DNA from: Prevotella sp.
GTDB taxonomy: Bacteria; Bacteroidota; Bacteroidia; Bacteroidales; Bacteroidaceae
Length of the DNA stretch: 64,000 nt
NCBI GenBank assembly: GCA_016286995.1
Contig: JAEEVA010000014.1
Location: forward strand, 1-64,000
Direction of reading: 5' to 3'
The notes beneath the pieces are model-generated. The model was not told the DNA's origin, searched no databases, and worked only from the letters and a program-made list of their open reading frames with translations. Position numbers and translations under genes: made by a program. Of the stretch, positions 4,745-61,128 are shown piece by piece (within the stretch, counting starts at the first letter, position 1; each line of letters starts with the position of its first letter).

Positions 4745-4817
4745 AAAAGTGTTTATAGGCAATAAACACAATATTCATAAGCAGTAAACACAGTGTTTAT
4801 TGCCTATAAACACTTTT
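4745..4817. repeat. Three-unit 22-bp-period array forming a perfect 25-bp inverted repeat
   Basis: Units at 4749, 4771, 4793; arms AAAAGTGTTTATAGGCAATAAACAC and GTGTTTATTGCCTATAAACACTTTT. Confidence 0.85.
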
Positions 4818-17453: not shown

Positions 17454-17455
<2 letters not shown>

Positions 17456-17484
17456 TGTTCAATGGTCAATGTTCAATGGTCAAT
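17454..17484. repeat. Solo 31-bp heptamer array (AATGKTC x4 + AAT)
   Basis: AATGTTC AATGGTC AATGTTC AATGGTC AAT, overlapping the atpD stop. Confidence 0.9.
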
Positions 17485-20612: not shown

Positions 20613-20854
20613 ATTGAACATTGAACATTGAAGATTGAACATTATATGCGAGCAGACAATCAAATATTGATCATCTCGAAATCTTTCGCTCTTCGGATAA
20701 TTAGGCTTTATACCTATTTGAAAGAAGAGAAAAGGGAGCATGTGATGTCAACTCAATTGTTGAGATGTGGAACAAGTATTGGTGCTAATGTTCGCGAGAG
20801 TAAAATCTTCAAAGTCTAAGACTAATGTTCAATGTTCAATCATCAATGTTCAAT
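20613..20854. mobile_element. TIR31 element E1: 31-bp heptamer inverted repeats flanking a truncated S23/IVP ORF
   Basis: Left 20613-20643 ATTGAACATTGAACATTGAAGATTGAACATT; right 20824-20854 AATGTTCAATGTTCAATCATCAATGTTCAAT; 28/31 complementary by eye. Confidence 0.6.
20628..20819 (+). pseudogene. Truncated four-helix-bundle (S23/IVP) protein
   Basis: DNQILIISKSFALRIIRLYTYLKEEKREHVMSTQLLRCGTSIGANVRES aligns with the N-terminus of the 34534-34905 protein, then ends. Confidence 0.7.
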
Positions 20855-25915: not shown

Positions 25916-26022
25916 AAGGCACATCCTTCGTCGTGATGTGCCTTCGGACGCGTCAGGATATGCCTTCTCTCGGTTCATGATGTGCCTTCGGAGCATTCAG
26001 GAAGTGTCTTCGGACCGTTCAA
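25916..26022. repeat. 22-bp-period degenerate array
   Basis: Units at 25935 GATGTGCCTTCGGACGCGTCAG, 25957 GATATGCCTTCTCTCGGTTCAT, 25979 GATGTGCCTTCGGAGCATTCAG, 26001 GAAGTGTCTTCGGACCGTTCAA; inverted copy AAGGCACATC at 25916. Confidence 0.85.
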
Positions 26023-27135: not shown

Positions 27136-30100
27136 TCACTTAATCACGACCTTACGGCCATTGACGATGTACACACCCTTCTTCGTGGGAGTGCCATCCA
27201 GCTGACGACCGTTCAAGTTGTAGATGGTGGAAGGCTTCTGATGTAATGTTGAGACGGGAGTGACACTTGTCGTTGCATCTTCATTGATAAAGAAGAACTC
27301 CTTCCACTGTGGTGCCTGCTGATAGGCTGACAAACAACTGGGAGGTACACTCAATGTGCAGTTCCACTTGTTGATGTCGTCCAATGCCTGGTTGCCACAT
27401 GTGGGTGGTACTGCTGCATGGCTAATCAGCTTGGTCATTGCCGTACAGTCGGAGAATGCCTCTTGGCCAATTTCCTGTACACAGGAGCCAAATGAGAAGA
27501 AATCGAGGCTGCTGCACCCGGAGAAAGCCCAATTGCCAATCTTCGTCACACCATTTCCAATCTTCACTTCCTTCAGATTTGTACAGCCATAGAATTCATT
27601 CTCCGAAATTTCTGTCTCTTTATTCGTTATCTCTACTGAACGTAACGTAGTATTCCGATAGAATGGAGAGTAACCATAGTAGCTCGAAGTTGAGTAGGTG
27701 ATGTTCCTGCCAATATAAACATAGTCAAGTGGACAGCTCGAGAATATCGGTCTACTATTACTGCCATAACCAAGTGCCAGTTCCGACTCATGCTCATCCA
27801 TGATAACAGTTTTTAAACTGGTACATCCACCAAAAACGTAGTTTCCGATAGATGTTACATTTTGAGGAATACGAATCGTTGGCAAAGCGCTGCAACCCCC
27901 AAAAGCACCCTCATTGATTGTCTTGACACTGCTGCCAATTTGCAGATCAATCAAAGAAGAACAGCCACTGAATGTATATTCATCAATGATATTAACACCA
28001 CTTCCTATTTTAGCAGATGTCATTAAAGAGCATCCGGAAAAAGCAGATTTCCCGATGGAAGTTACGGCATCAGGGATTACAATGCTTTCCAATTTAGAAC
28101 ATCCGTAGAAACTATTCTCGCCAATTGAAGTAACACCCTGACCTAAACCTGCAGTTTGCAAGGCTGTACATTTGTAGAATGCATTCTTTCCAAGATTGCC
28201 CTGATTGCTAATTGATACCGTATTTATGCTTTTACATGTATAAAACGCTTTTTCCCCTATATCTCCTTTAAAACTCAATGAAACATCTTGAATAAACTGA
28301 TTGTTATAGAATGCATAAGGATGAACTTGTTTTACCGTCAATGCTATTCCCTTATTCGTTACGGTTTCTCCGATATTCACATGTTCGTTAGTTTCATTAT
28401 ACAAACAATCAATAGCATCGCAAGTGCGGTCAGAAGGGCTTACAGGCACATATTTTACTCCGTCAACCTCAAAAAGTGAGCTTAAGAACGGATATTCTGT
28501 TTTGTTATACAGTGAAGTATATAGGTTATTTGGCACATAGTTCACTGATCCTGCGGCATTGTTATATCCACTTGGTGGTGTATTCGTTAACCAAATTACC
28601 TTTGTCGGTTTATGATTCTCAAAAATACCTGAACCGAAAGTCAATATTCCAGAGCCAATAGTTACACTCTCTAATTTGGAACAAGATGCGAATGCATTTT
28701 TATCGATGCTTGTCACTGAGTTGGGAATGGTCACGTTTATCAGGCCAGTGCAGTTACTGAACGCTTTGTCGCCGATGCTCGTCACTTCATCGCCGATTAT
28801 TACCTCTTTAATATTTTTGAGACCAGAAAACCAATTACCAATTGTACTACAATGGAATGTTACGCTCGTAAGGCCAGTGCAGTTATAGAACGCACTGGAA
28901 CCGATACTTGTCACTGAGTTCGGTAAGGTTATGCTTGTCAGACCAGTACAGTTATAGAACGCACTGGAACCGATTCTTATCACTGAGTTCGGTAAGGTTA
29001 TGCTTGTCAGACCAGTGCAGTTACTGAACGCTTTGTCGCCGATGCTCGTCACTTCATCACCGATTATTACCTCTTTAATATTTTTGAGATCAGAAAACCA
29101 ATTACCAATTGTACTACAATGGAATGTTACGCTCGTAAGGCCAATGCAGTTGTAGAACGCACTGGAACCGATACTTGTCACTGAGTTCGGTATGGTTATA
29201 CTTGTCAGGCCAGTGCAGCCTTCGAACGCCCCATAACCGATACTCGTCACTGAGTTGGGGATTGTTATACTCGTCAGGCCAGTGCAACCAGCGAACGCAC
29301 CACCGTTAAATCCTCCGATATCATTCGAACCAATGGACGTTACAGAGTTAGGTATGGTAACATTACTCAAACCTGTACAGTTATAAAATGTCCCATTCGC
29401 AATTGTTGAAATGGAATTCGGAATGGTTACGCTCGCCAGGCCTGTACAGCCTTGGAACGCATCTTTACCAATACTCGTCACTGAGTTCGGAATGGTTACG
29501 CTCGTCAGCCCTGTGCAGCCAGAGAATGCAGAGCTACCGATACTTGTCACTTCATCACCGATTGTAACTTCTTCAATATTTCCGAAGCCAGAAAACCAAC
29601 TACCAATTATATTACAGTGGAATGTCACGCTCGTCAAGCCAGTGCAGCCAGAAAACGCATAGCCACCGATGCTCGTCACTGAGTTGGGGATTGTTATGCT
29701 CGTCAGGCCAGAGCAGCCAGAAAACGCATAGCCACCGATGCTCGTCACTGAGTTGGGGATTGTTATGCTTGTCAGACCAGTGCAGCCAGAAAACGCATCG
29801 CTACCGATACTCGTCACTGAGTTGGGAATGGTTATGCTCGTCAGACCACTGCAGCCATGGAACGCATCCCAACCGATATTCGTCACTTCATCACCGATTA
29901 TTACCTCTTTAATATTTTTTAGATTAGAAAACCAACTGCCGATTGTATTACAATGGAATGTCACGCTCATCAGGCCAGTGCAGCCAGAGAATGCAGAGCT
30001 AGCGATATTTGTCACTGAATTGGGGATAGTTATACTCGTCAGACTAGTGCAGCCAAGAAATGCTTCGCTACCGATACTCGTTACTGAGTTGGGGATTGTT

Positions 30101-30834
30101 ATACTTGTCAGGCCAGTGCAGACAGAGAACGCAGAGCTACCGATACTTGTCACTTCATCACCGATTATAACTTCTTTAATGCTTTCGAAACCGGAGAACC
30201 AACTGCCAATTGTACTACAATGGAATGTCACGCTCGTCAGACTAGTGCAGCCAGAAAACGCACCATTACCGATGTTCGTCACTGAGTTCGGAATGGTTAT
30301 GCTCGTCAAACTAGTACAACCAGAAAACGCCTCATAACCGATGCTCGTCACTGAGTTTGGGATGAGTGTGTTTTGACAGCCCCATAGAAGTGTGTTAGTT
30401 TCAGTTTCAATAATAGCATTACAGTTATTTCGTGAATCAAATTTAGGATTATCTTGTGATACAACAATTGACGTCAGGCCAGTGCAACCTCTGAACGCAT
30501 AATTCTCGATGCTCGTTACTGAGTTTGGGATGGTTATGCTTGTTAGACCAGTGCAGTCACTGAACGCAGAGTTACCGATACTCGTTACAGGATAATTTTT
30601 TCCTCTATAAAAAACTGATTCAGGAATGACCACATTGCCAGAGTATTCATTGGAATAACTAAAAGAATAATCGCCACGATAGCTGACAGCAAACTCTGTA
30701 TAGTTGTTTGTATATCTATAATAGATGGTGACACCATCAGAATTGACCACTGCGATGTCGTAGGAAAAGGCTTTTGTTCCAACCATGCTCATGAGCACGG
30801 TGAGGAGTAATGTAAGTTTAAACTTTTTCATCAT
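27136..30834 (-). CDS. BspA-like leucine-rich repeat (LRR_5) surface protein, 1232 aa
   Basis: Signal peptide; many 23-aa repeats ([21 protein letters not shown]); C-terminal [28 protein letters not shown]. Confidence 0.95.
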
Positions 30835-31671: not shown

Positions 31672-31734
31672 ACGCCATAAAACATTACTGCCTATAGCCA
31701 CCCGGATTCAGCGTTAAACATATTATATGGAAAG

Positions 31735-31983
31735 ACGTGGGTGCTCTACTCGCCTATCCCACGTGAGGGCTCTCGCATTGCCTTGACCAGGATAAGCAAC
31801 TCGATAGCCCACGCCGAGAAATATTGACAAAGCCCCCAGATGGGGCTGATTGCAATACACTCAAAGTGGACGTTCGGTTGCGATATCTTCTGGTCATTGA
31901 ATTTGCGAGATTCTCACGTCGAAGATAACGTTCGTAAACGTCCTTTTTACCACTAAGATATGACCCTCCAGCCCTTGCGGACT
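31735..31983 (-). ncRNA. Candidate structured leader upstream of the HEPN/BspA gene run
   Basis: Stems: 31970-31974/31979-31983 (GCAA loop on minus), 31892-31897/31960-31965, 31868-31874/31937-31943, 31831-31836/31842-31847, 31735-31741/31758-31764. Confidence 0.4.
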
Positions 31984-31997
31984 ATTCGAGTCGCTTG

Positions 31998-32005
31998 CAA
32001 AGATA
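31998..32005 (-). promoter_or_regulatory. Promoter TATCTTTG (minus strand)
   Basis: CAAAGATA on plus. Confidence 0.55.
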
Positions 32006-32182
32006 CGAATAAGTGAGGACAAAAACAAATAAAATGGCAATTATTTTTTTTGTCGAACGAAAGTATCTTTACCATGGATAAAAGATAGGGAATTAATAAT
32101 ACTTACCTTACTTAGCAGGAAAGCATCTTTTAAAGCATAAGACATCATATACTGAAGGGTAATATGTGCTTAGCTACAAAAA

Positions 32183-32242
32183 AGTTGTTACAGCTTTTAA
32201 AATAGTTGTTACAGCTTTTCAGAAAGTTGTTACAACTTTTTT
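32183..32242. repeat. 21-bp-period array (AGTTGTTACAGCTTTTnnnnn)
   Basis: Unit starts 32183, 32204, 32225; core AAAAGTTGTTACARCTTTT. Confidence 0.85.
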
Positions 32243-32303
32243 GCCATTCAGCATCTCTTACTCTGTAGTATATATGGTTTTACTCGCTAAAAGATATGTT
32301 CTT

Positions 32304-32501
32304 GTTCAGTTCGATAGGCTCACTGGTGCGTCAAAGTAAGTGCGATGGTACGTCAATATAGGCTCGCCAGTACCTTTCGCGCACTTACTTTGACGCACCG
32401 TCGCACTTGAAATGACGCACCATCGCACTTACTATGACGCATTATCCCATATAAATTGACTTGTCAATGCACTTACTTGACTCGTCAACGCGTATACGAA
32501 A
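32304..32501. repeat. 22-bp-period degenerate array, about 9 units
   Basis: Unit starts 32304, 32326, 32348, 32370, 32392, 32414, 32436, 32458, 32480. Confidence 0.85.
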
Positions 32502-32549: not shown

Positions 32550-32557
32550 TACTTTTG
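32550..32557 (+). promoter_or_regulatory. Promoter TACTTTTG
   Basis: TAnnTTTG 50 bp before the transporter ATG. Confidence 0.5.
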
Positions 32558-32605: not shown

Positions 32606-33535
32606 ATGAAGAGGATATGTGATTTCATTGCCCGATGGATGGGGGCCATGGTTTTACTGGTGGCTGTGTTGTCACTGGCGGTTCCTGCATCTTTCGTATG
32701 GATTGACACTTGGGCTATCAATCCGATGTTAGGTGTCATCATGTTTGGCATGGGACTGACACTTTCACCAAAGGACTTCAAGGTGGTGTTAAGCCGTCCC
32801 AAGGATATTCTTATAGGCTGTCTGGCACAGTTTACAGTGATGCCTTTGCTGGCCTTCGTGCTGACGTGGTTGTTCGCATTGCCTAAGGAGCTGGCGCTGG
32901 GTGTGATACTGGTGGGTTGCTGTCCAGGTGGAACAGCCTCGAATGTCATTACTTATCTGGCAAAAGGCGATTTGGCGCTTTCTGTAGGCATGACTGCAAC
33001 CTCAACGCTGTTGGCGCCCTTTCTGACGCCGCTACTGGTGTGGTTGATGGCTGGCACAATGGTTGATGTCGATACGTTGGGCATGTTGCAGAGCATCGTC
33101 TACGTGGTTATTGCACCCATTGTCTGCGGACTGCTCTGCCAGCGTTTCCTGCCACAGTTGACGAAAGGCGTTACGCCCTATCTGCCGGCGTTCTCTTCAG
33201 TGGTGATTGCCATTGTGGTGGGTATCGTCGTGTCGCACAATGCCGACCGCCTGTTGGTAGGTGGCTTGCTGGTGGTGTTGGCGGTGATGGCACATAATGT
33301 GCTGGGACTCAGCATTGGTTTCCTCGTTGGCCGTCTATTGCAGCTACCCAAACCCAAGTGTGTGGCTCTCAGCATCGAGGTGGGAATGCAGAATTCTGGC
33401 CTTGCCTCGTCGTTAGCCGTGTTGCATTTTGCGGCATATCCGCTTGCCACAATTCCTGGTGCCGTATTTAGCGTGTGGCATAATATCAGTGGTGCCTTAG
33501 TTGCCAAACTATATCAAATGTGGCAAAAAAAATAG
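32606..33535 (+). CDS. Bile acid:sodium symporter (BASS) family transporter
   Basis: GVIMFGMGLTLSPKDF, CCPGGTASNVITYLAKGDLALSV, EVGMQNSGLA. Confidence 0.9.
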   Translation: MKRICDFIARWMGAMVLLVAVLSLAVPASFVWIDTWAINPMLGVIMFGMGLTLSPKDFKVVLSRPKDILIGCLAQFTVMPLLAFVLTWLFALPKELALGVILVGCCPGGTASNVITYLAKGDLALSVGMTATSTLLAPFLTPLLVWLMAGTMVDVDTLGMLQSIVYVVIAPIVCGLLCQRFLPQLTKGVTPYLPAFSSVVIAIVVGIVVSHNADRLLVGGLLVVLAVMAHNVLGLSIGFLVGRLLQLPKPKCVALSIEVGMQNSGLASSLAVLHFAAYPLATIPGAVFSVWHNISGALVAKLYQMWQKK

Positions 33536-34504: not shown

Positions 34505-34927
34505 ATTGAACATTGAACATTGACCATTGACCATTAATCTTTCGCTTCCGTTTTGGTCGTTTTGATGATTTTGGTCAGGGTAGCTGCAATTTTACCACAA
34601 TCATTATAAATAGATTCAAATTGTTTGTCGTCTATTACGTCTGACTCATGTAACAGCTCTAGCCAATATTCAGTTTCGTTTGCTTCCTTTAGAGCAATGT
34701 TTAATTTGTTAACAAAATCCATTCGACTTTGAGCATTGACACTCTCTCGAATATTTGCCCCTATACTAGTGCCACTTCGGAGAACTTGCTTAGACAATAC
34801 ATATACTTGTTTGTCTTCTTTCAAGTACTTATAAAGACGGATTATTCGTAGTGCAAAAACCTTACTATCAATTAATACTTGATTATCCGTCTTCATAATG
34901 GTCAATGTTCAATGTTCAATGGTCAAT
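34505..34927. mobile_element. TIR31 element E2: 31-bp heptamer inverted repeats flanking an intact S23/IVP ORF
   Basis: Left 34505-34535 ATTGAACATTGAACATTGACCATTGACCATT; right 34897-34927 AATGGTCAATGTTCAATGTTCAATGGTCAAT; 29/31 complementary by eye. Confidence 0.65.
34534..34905 (-). CDS. Four-helix-bundle protein, S23 / 23S rRNA intervening-sequence protein (IVP) family
   Basis: SKVFALRIIRLYKYLKEDKQVYVLSKQVLRSGTSIGANIRESVNAQSRMDFVNKLNIALKEANETEYWLELL. Confidence 0.9.
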   Translation of the reverse strand: MTIMKTDNQVLIDSKVFALRIIRLYKYLKEDKQVYVLSKQVLRSGTSIGANIRESVNAQSRMDFVNKLNIALKEANETEYWLELLHESDVIDDKQFESIYNDCGKIAATLTKIIKTTKTEAKD

Positions 34928-35990
34928 GATTATTTTCAAATTCCTTCATGCAGGCAACGAGGGCGTTGCAGCCTTCGATGGTCTGGGCGTTGTAGCAAGA
35001 GGCGCGGAAGCCACCTACCGAACGGTGACCCTTCACACCAACCATACCCTTTGAGGTTGCGAAGTCGAGGAAGTCCTTCTCTAACTCCTTGTACTCGTCG
35101 GCCATCACGAAGCAGAGGTTCATCACTGAACGGTCCTCAACATTGGCAGTACCACGGAACATCTTGTTACGGTCAATCTCACCGTAAACAATCTCAGCAC
35201 GCTGCTGAGCCAGCTTGTCCATAGCCTCAACACCACCATTGCGCTTAATCCAACGGAGGGTCTCAAGAGCACTGTAGATGGGAACCACGGGAGGTGTATT
35301 GAACATAGAACCCTTGTCCACGTGGGTGCGATAGTCGAGCATGGTAGGAATCTCACGAGGAGCCTTGCCCAGTTTCTCGTCCTTCAGGATGATGATAGTG
35401 ACACCAGCCATAGCCAGATTCTTCTGAGCACCAGCGTAGATGGCGTCGTACTTCTTAACGTCGATGGGACGGCTGAAGATATCCGACGACATATCGGCAA
35501 TCAGGGGAACGTTGACGTCGAGGTCCTTGCGAATCTCAGTACCGTAAATGGTGTTGTTCGTCGTGATGTGCAGGTAGTCGGCATCAGCGGGAACCGTCCA
35601 GTCCTTAGGAATGAATGTATAGTTGGCGTCAGCGGAAGAAGCCACTTCTACTACCTCACCAAACAACTTGGCCTCCTTCATAGCTTTCTTGGCCCAGACA
35701 CCTGTGTTCAGATAAGCAGCCTTCTTAATCAGGAAGTTGTAGGGAATCATGCAGAACTCGAGGCTTGCACCACCACCGAGGAAGATGACTGAGTAACCCT
35801 CAGGAATGTCGAGGAGCTCCTTTACAAGAGCGACAGCCTCGTCGACAACGGGCTGGAAGTCCTTTGCACGGTGGCTGATCTCCATCAGAGAGAGACCTGA
35901 GCCATTGAAATCAAGACACTGTTTTGCGGTTGCTTCGATAACCTCACGTGGGAGCATCGAGGGACCGGCGTTAAAGTTGTACTTCTTCAT
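34923..35990 (-). CDS. serC: Phosphoserine aminotransferase
   Basis: [45 protein letters not shown]. Confidence 0.96.
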
Positions 35991-36212: not shown

Positions 36213-37583
36213 TTAGCGAACCTTTTCGACAATGGTTTTGATTCCTTTGATTTTTTCTCCCTGAACACTGTTGAGCACTTGCTGTACTTTTTCACGACGG
36301 ATGGCTGCATAGGTGTAGCGGTCCTTTACGTCGATGCGACCAATCTCTCCAGCCTCTATACCACCCTTTTTGCACAGGAATCCCACAATATCACCTTTCG
36401 AAAGCTTATCCTTCTTGCCCTTGCCGATGTAGAGGGTAGCCATCTTGGGGGCTGGGACATTGACCATTGATGATTGACCATTGACCATTTTCTGGGTGGG
36501 CTCGTAATGTTCAATGTTCAATGGTGAATGGTCAATGACAAACTCGGGGATATGCTCTTCGCTGTTCAGGATAAAGAACGTGCGGCCTGTGGCATCCCAA
36601 CGGGCCGTACGGCCTACACGGTGGATGTAGCCTTCTTCGCTTTCTGGCAGATGGTAGTGGATAATGTTCCGGATGTTTGGAATGTCCAGTCCACGTGAAG
36701 CCAAGTCGGTAGCTACGAGCACGTTTGCCGAGCCGTTGGCAAACTTGTAGAGCATATCCTCGCGTTGGCGCTGTTCCAGTCCACCATGAAAGTGACTGGT
36801 CGTAAAGCCCTGTTTGCGTAGGAATTCGTTGACTCGCTCAACGCTGTCGCGGTAGTTCAGGAATACAATACTGCTCTCATCGCCAACACTCAGCAACAGG
36901 TTGCGCAGTGTTTCCAGCTTGTCCTTCTGTGGACTGTGCACCTCATAGAGTGTCACACGCTCCGACGTCTGCTCGTCTTCAGGTAGGAAGTCTACCAGCG
37001 TGCCTTTTTTCGACATATTGACAAACTGTGGAATCTGTTCGGCATTGGTGGCTGATAGCAGGATGCGACGCTGCAGACCTGGCAGGCTCTTCAGCAGTTT
37101 GGACATCTCAGCTTGGAATCCCATTTCCAGGCATTTGTCGAACTCATCGATGATTAGATAGCGGATGCCATAGCGTGAGATGTTGTCCTTGTCCAGATGG
37201 TCATTCAGGCGTCCGGGAGTGCCAAAAACAATATGCGGGCGTACCTCTTTTAATATGCGATGCTCGTCCATGGTCGGTCTGCCACCGTAGCACGCCATGC
37301 CACGCAATCCACAGCCCAAACTCTTCAGGACGTCGGCCGACTGTAGTGCCAGCTCCCTGCCTGGAGTGATGACGAGGGCAGATGTCTGAGAGTCTTTGTC
37401 AGAAGGCTGAGTGGTTTCTATGAGCTGTATGAGGGGTAGGAGATAAGCCAGTGTCTTTCCCGAACCGGTAGGTGACAAGATAACAACATCACCGTCGGTG
37501 CCTGTAATGGCCTCGACGGCGTGTTGCTGCATCTCGTTCAATGAAGTGATGCCAAGTTTGCTTAATATCGTCTCAACATCCAA
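36213..37583 (-). CDS. DEAD-box RNA helicase with a DbpA-like C-terminal RNA-binding domain
   Basis: SPTGSGKTLAYLLPL, LIIDEFDKCLEMGF, LLSATNAEQ, HRVGRTAR; start codon appears to be TTG inside a heptamer array. Confidence 0.9.
   Translation of the reverse strand: MDVETILSKLGITSLNEMQQHAVEAITGTDGDVVILSPTGSGKTLAYLLPLIQLIETTQPSDKDSQTSALVITPGRELALQSADVLKSLGCGLRGMACYGGRPTMDEHRILKEVRPHIVFGTPGRLNDHLDKDNISRYGIRYLIIDEFDKCLEMGFQAEMSKLLKSLPGLQRRILLSATNAEQIPQFVNMSKKGTLVDFLPEDEQTSERVTLYEVHSPQKDKLETLRNLLLSVGDESSIVFLNYRDSVERVNEFLRKQGFTTSHFHGGLEQRQREDMLYKFANGSANVLVATDLASRGLDIPNIRNIIHYHLPESEEGYIHRVGRTARWDATGRTFFILNSEEHIPEFVIDHSPLNIEHYEPTQKMVNGQSSMVNVPAPKMATLYIGKGKKDKLSKGDIVGFLCKKGGIEAGEIGRIDVKDRYTYAAIRREKVQQVLNSVQGEKIKGIKTIVEKVR
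36459..36536. mobile_element. TIR31 mini-element E3 (31 + 16 + 31 bp), in frame inside the DEAD-box helicase gene
   Basis: 36459-36489 ATTGACCATTGATGATTGACCATTGACCATT; 36506-36536 AATGTTCAATGTTCAATGGTGAATGGTCAAT; 78 bp = 26 codons. Confidence 0.6.
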
Positions 37584-37612
37584 TTGTCAATTCTCAATTG
37601 TCAATTCTCAAT
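37582..37612. repeat. Solo 31-bp heptamer array (AATTSTC x4 + AAT)
   Basis: AATTGTC AATTCTC AATTGTC AATTCTC AAT between ompH-like stop and helicase start. Confidence 0.9.
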
Positions 37613-38221
37613 TCACTTCTTCTCCTCTTCCTTCTTCGCCGGCATCTTCTTGTAGCGCTTGTTCAGACCGTTAATGACGTCCTTGGTGATGTCGAAACGT
37701 GGAGCGGCATAAAGGATGTTGTCACCCTGCTTGGTCAGAATCAGGTCGTACTTCTTGTCCTTGTTGTAGGCCTTCAGGAAGTTCATCAGCGAGTCGCGAA
37801 GGGCGTCGTTGTACTTCTGGGTCTCCTGGGCCAGCTCGTTCTCAAGACGGGCCTGCAGTTCTGCCAGACTCTGCTGCTGACGCTGAATGGCTGCTTGCTG
37901 GCTCTCAGCCTGTTCACGGCTGGTGAAACCATTGTTGTTCAGCTTCTGCTGGAAGTTGGCAGCAGCGCTCTGCAACTGCTGGCCTTTCTGGTTCAGCGTG
38001 TTGCGGGCATTGTTGCCCTTCTTCTGCAGAATGAGCGAGAACTCCTTGCAGAATTCATACTGTGTCATCAGAGAGTCAACCTCAACAAAGGCAATCTTCA
38101 GACTGCCAGTCTGGTTGCTGTCAGCAGCTGCTGCGGGTTGATCATCCATTTTTGAAGTTGCATTGTTGCAAGAGGCCAGTGCCATTACGGCAGCTGCGGC
38201 CATCATCATGTACTTTTTCAT
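37613..38221 (-). CDS. OmpH/Skp family periplasmic chaperone-like protein
   Basis: Lipoprotein-like signal MKKYMMMAAAAVMALASCNN; KIAFVEVDSLMTQYEFCKEF; coiled coil. Confidence 0.85.
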   Translation of the reverse strand: MKKYMMMAAAAVMALASCNNATSKMDDQPAAAADSNQTGSLKIAFVEVDSLMTQYEFCKEFSLILQKKGNNARNTLNQKGQQLQSAAANFQQKLNNNGFTSREQAESQQAAIQRQQQSLAELQARLENELAQETQKYNDALRDSLMNFLKAYNKDKKYDLILTKQGDNILYAAPRFDITKDVINGLNKRYKKMPAKKEEEKK

Positions 38222-44179: not shown

Positions 44180-44188
44180 GTTAGTTAA

Positions 44189-44254
44189 GTATTCTCTCTT
44201 TGAGAGTGTAGCGTTCTCTCTTTGAGATTGTGGCGTTGCAATGCAATGGGTGTT
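44189..44254. repeat. 22-bp-period array, three units
   Basis: GTATTCTCTCTTTGAGAGTGTA / GCGTTCTCTCTTTGAGATTGTG / GCGTTGCAATGCAATGGGTGTT. Confidence 0.8.
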
Positions 44255-51464: not shown

Positions 51465-51517
51465 ACAATAATAATAGTAAATCGTAAATTGTCAAATAGT
51501 AAATTAACTAAAGGCTT

Positions 51518-60101: not shown

Positions 60102-60214
60102 GGTAAAAGTGAAGAGTGAAAAATTTGCTACCGCCATGATGATGCGACGTGCAGGAGCTTTATGCTTGATGCTATATTGTGCGGTAGCAAATTTTTCACT
60201 TTTCACTTTTACCT
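60101..60214. repeat. 34-bp near-perfect inverted repeat with 46-bp core encoding most of a signal peptide
   Basis: AGGTAAAAGTGAAGAGTGAAAAATTTGCTACCGC / GCGGTAGCAAATTTTTCACTTTTCACTTTTACCT, 33/34. Confidence 0.85.
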
Positions 60215-61128
60215 TTTCACTTTGCCCCGTAGGGGCTCAGACGCTCGTCGAGCTGAACTGTGAGAACCTGTTTGACTGCCGTCACGACTCACTGAAGCAA
60301 GATACTGAGTGGTTGCCCGAAGGCCAGCGCCACTGGACTCCTGCCCGATACTGGCGAAAAGTGAACAGTATCGGGCAGGAGATTCTTTCATGTCAGGAGA
60401 ATGGCATCCCTGACCTCGTAGCACTGGTAGAAGTGGAAAACGATTCAGTCGTTTTCGATATGACACGGCGTTCACTGTTGCGTAATGCCGGCTACGAATA
60501 CCTCATGACCGAGTCGCCCGATGTCCGTGGCATCGACGTGGCCTTGCTCTATCAGCCTGCGACGTTCCGCCCCATCTGCTACGACTATCTCACCATTACG
60601 CCGTTAGAAGACATGCGTCCCACACGTGACATCCTGTATGTTCAAGGGGAAACCTTGAACAGCGATACCCTGCATGTCTTTGTGGTCCATGCCCCCAGCC
60701 GCTTTGGCGGTGAACGGTCCACGCGTCCCAACCGCCGTCTGATTGCCGACAAGCTGTTGGAGACCATCCACCGTTTGCCGTCCGATGCCAAGGTCGTAGT
60801 GGCCGGTGACTTCAACGACTATGCCGACAGTCCTGCCCTGACATATCTGGAGCAGCATGCCCTGCATATCATTAGCCGCGATGCCCATGGTCGGTATGGC
60901 GCTGAGGGTACCTACCGCTATCAGGGACGTTGGCAGAGCATCGACCACGTGCTGGTGAGCAACGCCCTATTGCCTTCCGTCGAGCAAGTCTATGTCAACG
61001 ATGCCCCCTTTCTGATGGAGGAAGACAAAAAGTACGGAGGAGTCAAACCCCTCCGTACCTTCAATGGTTATCGCTACCAGAAAGGCTTCAGCGACCATTT
61101 GCCGCTGGTGGTCCGTTTCCGGTTCTAA
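60136..61128 (+). CDS. Secreted endonuclease/exonuclease/phosphatase-family protein
   Basis: ELNCENLFDCRHD, VEVENDSVV, VVAGDFNDYADSPAL, FSDHLPLVVRFRF; start taken at first ATG. Confidence 0.85.
   Translation: MMMRRAGALCLMLYCAVANFSLFTFTFSLCPVGAQTLVELNCENLFDCRHDSLKQDTEWLPEGQRHWTPARYWRKVNSIGQEILSCQENGIPDLVALVEVENDSVVFDMTRRSLLRNAGYEYLMTESPDVRGIDVALLYQPATFRPICYDYLTITPLEDMRPTRDILYVQGETLNSDTLHVFVVHAPSRFGGERSTRPNRRLIADKLLETIHRLPSDAKVVVAGDFNDYADSPALTYLEQHALHIISRDAHGRYGAEGTYRYQGRWQSIDHVLVSNALLPSVEQVYVNDAPFLMEEDKKYGGVKPLRTFNGYRYQKGFSDHLPLVVRFRF

Follow-up and report, generated by a model that had tools for sequence, protein, structure and literature searches.

The array and its surroundings

The window is the whole stretch of 64,000 nucleotides that was analysed, positions 1 to 64,000 of a contig from Prevotella sp. 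The organism is a rumen Prevotella. Its intergenic array at 32304–32501 has as neighbours an SBF-family transporter gene, a BspA-type leucine-rich repeat protein, and two ORFs for which Pfam gave no hit. The transporter gene (bile acid:sodium symporter-like; 32606–33535, forward strand) lies downstream of the array, and its best relatives are from uncultured Prevotellaceae and from named Prevotella and Xylanibacter. On the same strand as the transporter gene, TACTTTTG at 32550–32557 fits the Bacteroidota -7 promoter consensus TAnnTTTG; it follows the array downstream at a distance of about 85 bp. The BspA-type protein is large (27136–30834), and its coding region includes internal DNA repeats of 69 and 267 bp. 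Two intergenic segments, 31731–31824 and 31996–32067, show 77–79% matches in other Prevotella (L082, L101), unlike the array.

The lag-22 identity at 32304–32501 is 0.466, versus 0.251 ± 0.033 in dinucleotide shuffles (z = 6.4), a value attained by none of 2000 shuffles across lags 8 to 66. The original prediction described nine units, all on a strict period of 22 bp, over this interval. The register holds for 32304–32458; beyond about 32455 the period is 21, as indicated by the identities at lag 21 (0.44) and lag 22 (0.27) in 32436–32501. Instead of nine units, five clear copies of a conserved word are recognized on the 22-bp register, two of them in one orientation and the other three as reverse complements.

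These copies are arranged as facing arms in the interval 32300–32465, which is matched at four other long sites of the genome. The left arm (32325–32355, forward strand) carries GGTGCGTCA at 32325 and, 22 bp further on, GGTACGTCA at 32347. The right arm (32391–32441, reverse strand) carries the reverse-complement word TGACGCA at 32391, 32413, and 32435, in the same 22-bp register as the left arm. Between these opposed copies lies a GC-rich hairpin (GCGCGAAAGGTATTCGCGAG-like; 32359–32383), which is conserved in the copies L002, L003, L005, and L012. An inverted pair, first reported as 18 bp, is present and is really 20 nt long with 100% identity (32325–32344 and 32380–32399). The small palindromes were rightly noticed: ATTGACTTGTCAAT is found in the array. 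The array's own units are only weakly palindromic. At 32455–32490, two palindromes, TTGACTTGTCAA and TTGACTCGTCAA, are 21 bp apart, as seen from their sequence and from the lag of 21.

Arrays with a period of 21 or 22 bp also exist elsewhere in the window, near 4749, 25935, 32178, and 44189, as had been proposed. A 22-bp array at 4746–4801 (GTGTTTAT..ATAAACAC) gives a 27-bp perfect stem when folded, and shares its word with contig C26 (L155). The 22-bp array at 25931–26021 (GATGTGCCTTCGGACG) shares its word with contig C16 (L146). A weak 22-bp array of two units at 44182–44238 (TTCTCTCTTTGAGAG) is the sole array in the window for which no convincing second locus was found.

Apart from these arrays, the window includes many 7-bp tandem repeats (AATGTTC, ATTGAAC, CAATTCT, and others) of around 31 bp or 4.4 units, mostly between genes or at gene edges. 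They are located at 17454–17484, 20613–20643, 20824–20854, 34505–34535, 34897–34928, 36458–36537, 37581–37614, 51473–51504, and 60193–60223. Their word varies while the length is kept, and they are reminiscent of the STRRs of cyanobacteria.

A dispersed composite repeat with genome-specific words

The array was found at four other long sites of its own genome, with identities of 90, 85, 80, and 75% over 150–165 bp, and in additional fragments. The copies are dispersed and their flanks are unrelated. The homology extends past the array: other copies have a second array ahead of it, followed by a conserved spacer. Thus, the array at 32178–32240, three palindromic units AAAGTTGTTACAACTTT with a 21-bp period, is the first array of a composite repeat, which continues through the spacer at 32241–32303 into the 22-bp array. 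The alignment with contig C29 (L052) shows 94% identity over 471 columns and corresponds to 31996–32464 of the window. In most copies the spacer follows an array built from the palindrome AAATTCAnTGAATTT, where the window has AAAGTTGTnACAACTTT; the word of this array is exchanged while its size and symmetry are kept.

The window array is absent from all 199 other genomes of the genus that were searched. A pattern that repeats AAATTCAnTGAATTT at intervals of exactly 22 bp matched 48 times in the window's genome; of 60 further genomes searched in the family, none had a match, and a control with the backwards pattern gave none. The genome has several array words rather than one. The word of the array at 32300 is common to contigs C29, C44, C21, and C43, and that of the array at 32178 to C29, C26, and C50. 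The sequence was originally described as differing per locus, but of the window's five arrays, four have word partners at other loci of the same genome. Across the arrays analysed, words are closer within than between genomes (p ~ 1 × 10−19). Since a genome reuses its words at many loci, and different species have different words, comparison of the array sequences indicates that the words are genome-specific, and the proposal of locus-specific words does not hold.

Neither terminal inverted repeats nor target duplications were recognized, and the copies examined yielded no transposase. The window segment had no match in the plasmid search, and the composite copy L020 had none in the plasmid or phage searches. 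In the relatives examined for an empty site, the neighbourhood of the window locus is not syntenic. Some composite copies come with a further dispersed repeat about 320 bp long (L020:929–1247, L021:1832–2148, and L026:1856–2124), and the two ORFs read from it have no protein family hit.

The 22-bp pitch and the degenerate motif of a relative

In non-simple intergenic repeats of rumen Prevotella, 71 segments were counted at lag 22, 44 at lag 44, and 16 at lag 66, against a mean of 2.6 segments at the other lags from 12 to 32. This pool includes samples of the present genome, G016, G024, G010, and other relatives, as well as 80 homologous loci from named genomes. The lag scan of intergenic regions, proposed with the original prediction, thus reveals 22 as the sole strong non-simple period in the genus, accompanied by its multiples. 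The peak is weaker in 20 other genera of the family (five segments in 353 kb), and in other families of the order one segment was found at lag 22 and three at lag 23 in 362 kb. Escherichia coli showed no lag-22 segments in 200 kb. Arrays with a 23-bp pitch, the brick length of BrickBuilt in Porphyromonas gingivalis, are represented in the other families by L205:153–240 and L213:8223–9756; in L213 one word occurs at two sites, one of which adjoins a promoter-like TAnnTTTG.

Unrelated words from different species and genera share the same 22-bp pitch. The idea under examination would have failed either with no genome-wide excess at 21–22 bp or with identical arrays in distant species, and neither was found. 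In the intergenic regions sampled, palindrome centres are 11, 22, 33, and 44 bp apart, and units score 5.70 of 9 for palindromy versus 4.56 of 9 in column-permuted arrays. The lattice extends into dissimilar flanking units with a weak excess. A division of the bricks into conserved and variable halves is not a general rule (significant in 3 of 80 arrays), and enrichment of arrays near promoters, between convergent genes, or by gene orientation is weak or absent. The window array is a locally ordinary-looking dispersed repeat and a member of a genus-wide class in which the pitch is fixed at 22 bp and the word changes. No report of such arrays in Prevotella was found in the literature searched, which mostly excludes subscription journals.

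The best-sampled member of this class is the relative G016, which has about 31 clusters of degenerate arrays per 400 kb, all with one 22-bp word (consensus ACGCAGATTACACGGTAATTTG) and dyad axes every 11 bp; extrapolation from 400 kb to the 3.17-Mb genome gives about 250 arrays. All of the clusters are outside ORFs. Of the 73 unit pairs in held-out clusters, 62 conform to the lattice, even though adjacent units are only 60% identical. Symmetric columns prefer complementary letters (n = 167 units), a preference that is partly ascertained because the arrays used to train the position weight matrix were chosen by their 22-bp lag, and neighbouring units share ancestry. Alternative letters are position-specific, with some positions admitting just A or G and others just A or T. 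Dyad partners do not covary among the 167 units (z = −0.26 and 0.89). The combination of a symmetric motif at the helical pitch with independent half-sites is a result for the relative G016 rather than for the word of the window. G016 also has arrays with a 44-bp period, exactly twice the 22-bp pitch, consisting of a GC-rich hairpin CTCCCC..AAGG..GGGGAG (L178:14743–15132, L180:6145–6262, and L182:11625–11944).

That symmetric positions in G016 vary independently speaks more for sites of a dimeric DNA-binding protein than for hairpins. Selection for hairpins of RNA or single-stranded DNA, acting as terminators, small RNAs, or transcript stabilisers, could explain why the folds of many arrays surpass those of shuffles by a wide margin (z = −4 to −11), as is the case for the window arrays at 32300, 32160, and 4740. 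The arrays at 25925, L127, L150, and L160 fold no better than shuffles. Neither compensatory change within units nor an excess of mirror-pair covariation along the arrays was seen, in agreement with the dyad partners of G016, and because these three tests of compensatory change were negative, hairpin selection was set aside despite the good folding. There is no strong preference for convergent genes, and all Rfam hits were miRNA-like chance matches below gathering scores. Hairpins as the selected product are thus improbable. Slightly less probable still is the neutral decay of minisatellites combined with palindrome-directed mutation. Length changes by slippage and the lack of a clear gene-context bias would be expected from such decay, whereas a single exact pitch throughout the genus, and the position-specific alternative letters and retained register of G016, would not.

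Judged from its aligned units, the pattern of G016 has the look of an additive motif bound by a dimeric protein and departs from what hairpin selection or simple decay would give. Recognition of geometry alone, one of the possibilities first proposed, is not supported, given the definite degenerate motif that the arrays of this relative have in common and the independence of its symmetric positions; it appears that a word is read at a fixed pitch.

Brick number, mobile elements, and the proposed explanation

The number of bricks changes between close species in whole units. Four close species carry 3, 3, 2, and 1 bricks at one locus, and two species differ by exactly one 22-bp brick at another; these comparisons concern same-pitch arrays in other, closely related species and not the window locus. 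One species has array-bearing stretches of about 112 and about 247 bp that its close relatives lack, through either gain or loss.

These stretches, seen as inserts relative to close species, the shifts in whole 22-bp units, and the dispersal of copies among unrelated flanks would also be expected of a non-autonomous, MITE-like element carrying a minisatellite, whose pitch would have arisen by slippage in a common ancestor without any role in binding. The copies in G026 have leader- and tail-like flanks in common, and there is a precedent: BrickBuilt of Porphyromonas gingivalis (PMC4596501), a MITE/minisatellite whose 23-nt bricks vary in number with the strain, lie between a leader and a tail, and are predicted to form long stem-loops. 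Such an origin is a possible but rather doubtful explanation, since it does not readily account for a pitch common to unrelated words of different species and genera, nor for its survival in G016 through a divergence of about 40% between units; in addition, no such termini were recognized, and no transposase turned up among the copies examined.

BrickBuilt is nevertheless the closest known thing. Both are intergenic, dispersed, and restricted to a species, with several copies in the case of the window array, and both consist of tandem bricks without spacers that are predicted to form long stem-loops. Brick number varies among strains in BrickBuilt, and here between close species at other same-pitch arrays. 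BrickBuilt differs in having 23-nt bricks of one word family, whereas the present arrays have 22-bp (and 21-bp) bricks of many unrelated words and dyad axes every 11 bp. A leader and tail with IS5-type terminal inverted repeats were reported for BrickBuilt (PMC4596501); here, copies have flanking segments in common, and neither a terminal inverted repeat nor a target duplication was recognized. Because its bricks are not 23 nt long and no terminal repeats were recognized, the element of the window was not classified as a member of BrickBuilt.

REP and BIME sequences are likewise species-specific intergenic palindromes with many copies, sometimes in arrays, and Y1 genes are present in several relatives. 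REPs are not known to have a fixed 22-bp pitch. Mobilisation of REP-type palindromes by a RAYT (Y1) transposase was rejected as very improbable: no Y1 match above the cut-off was found in this genome, nor in G003, G005, G008, and G012, and in G016 the palindrome on either side of the Y1 gene is another one, rich in GC, so no cognate Y1 gene flanked by an array palindrome was seen. This RAYT-like gene (L258; G016:C1:610881) lies within the inverted palindrome CCCCATGTTGGC...GTGGGG, with a second long tandem repeat upstream and a 22-bp lattice array about 500 bp downstream.

Plasmid iterons, the arrays bound by replication initiators, are sequence-specific sites about two helical turns apart, and their word differs per system. 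The present arrays are chromosomal, number many per genome, and are dyad-symmetric, and the window array has neither an adjacent initiator gene nor, like L020, a plasmid match. CRISPR arrays share regularly spaced palindromic repeats, but the units here are contiguous and degenerate, not identical, and have no unique spacers.

The explanation we prefer, at a probability of about one half, is a species-specific dispersed composite repeat whose bricks are predicted sites of a dimeric protein and whose whole bricks are gained and lost by tandem duplication and deletion. The window array is one copy of an intergenic composite, in which phased 21-bp and 22-bp arrays are joined by the conserved spacer; the copies may have arisen by the copying of whole elements. 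In rumen Prevotella, the class has a brick length fixed at 22 bp and mostly dyad symmetry every 11 bp, with a species-dependent word. Each brick is most likely a site for a sequence-specific, dimeric DNA-binding protein, and the dimers would be aligned along a single face of the helix at intervals of two turns, provided that the window array works like those of the relative. A broader form of this explanation, a genome-wide lattice of operator arrays for a predicted chromosomal dimeric protein whose specificity is quickly replaced between species while the 22-bp spacing is kept, is held only tentatively.

The pitch stays fixed here and the words change, the reverse of what ordinary conserved regulation shows. 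Should a protein read the arrays, its specificity must turn over with them, as in an arms race or in the evolution of centromere satellites, and dozens of related genomes are available as natural replicates. If the arrays are instead mobile elements, they constitute a genus-wide brick-built family far larger than the single example of Porphyromonas.
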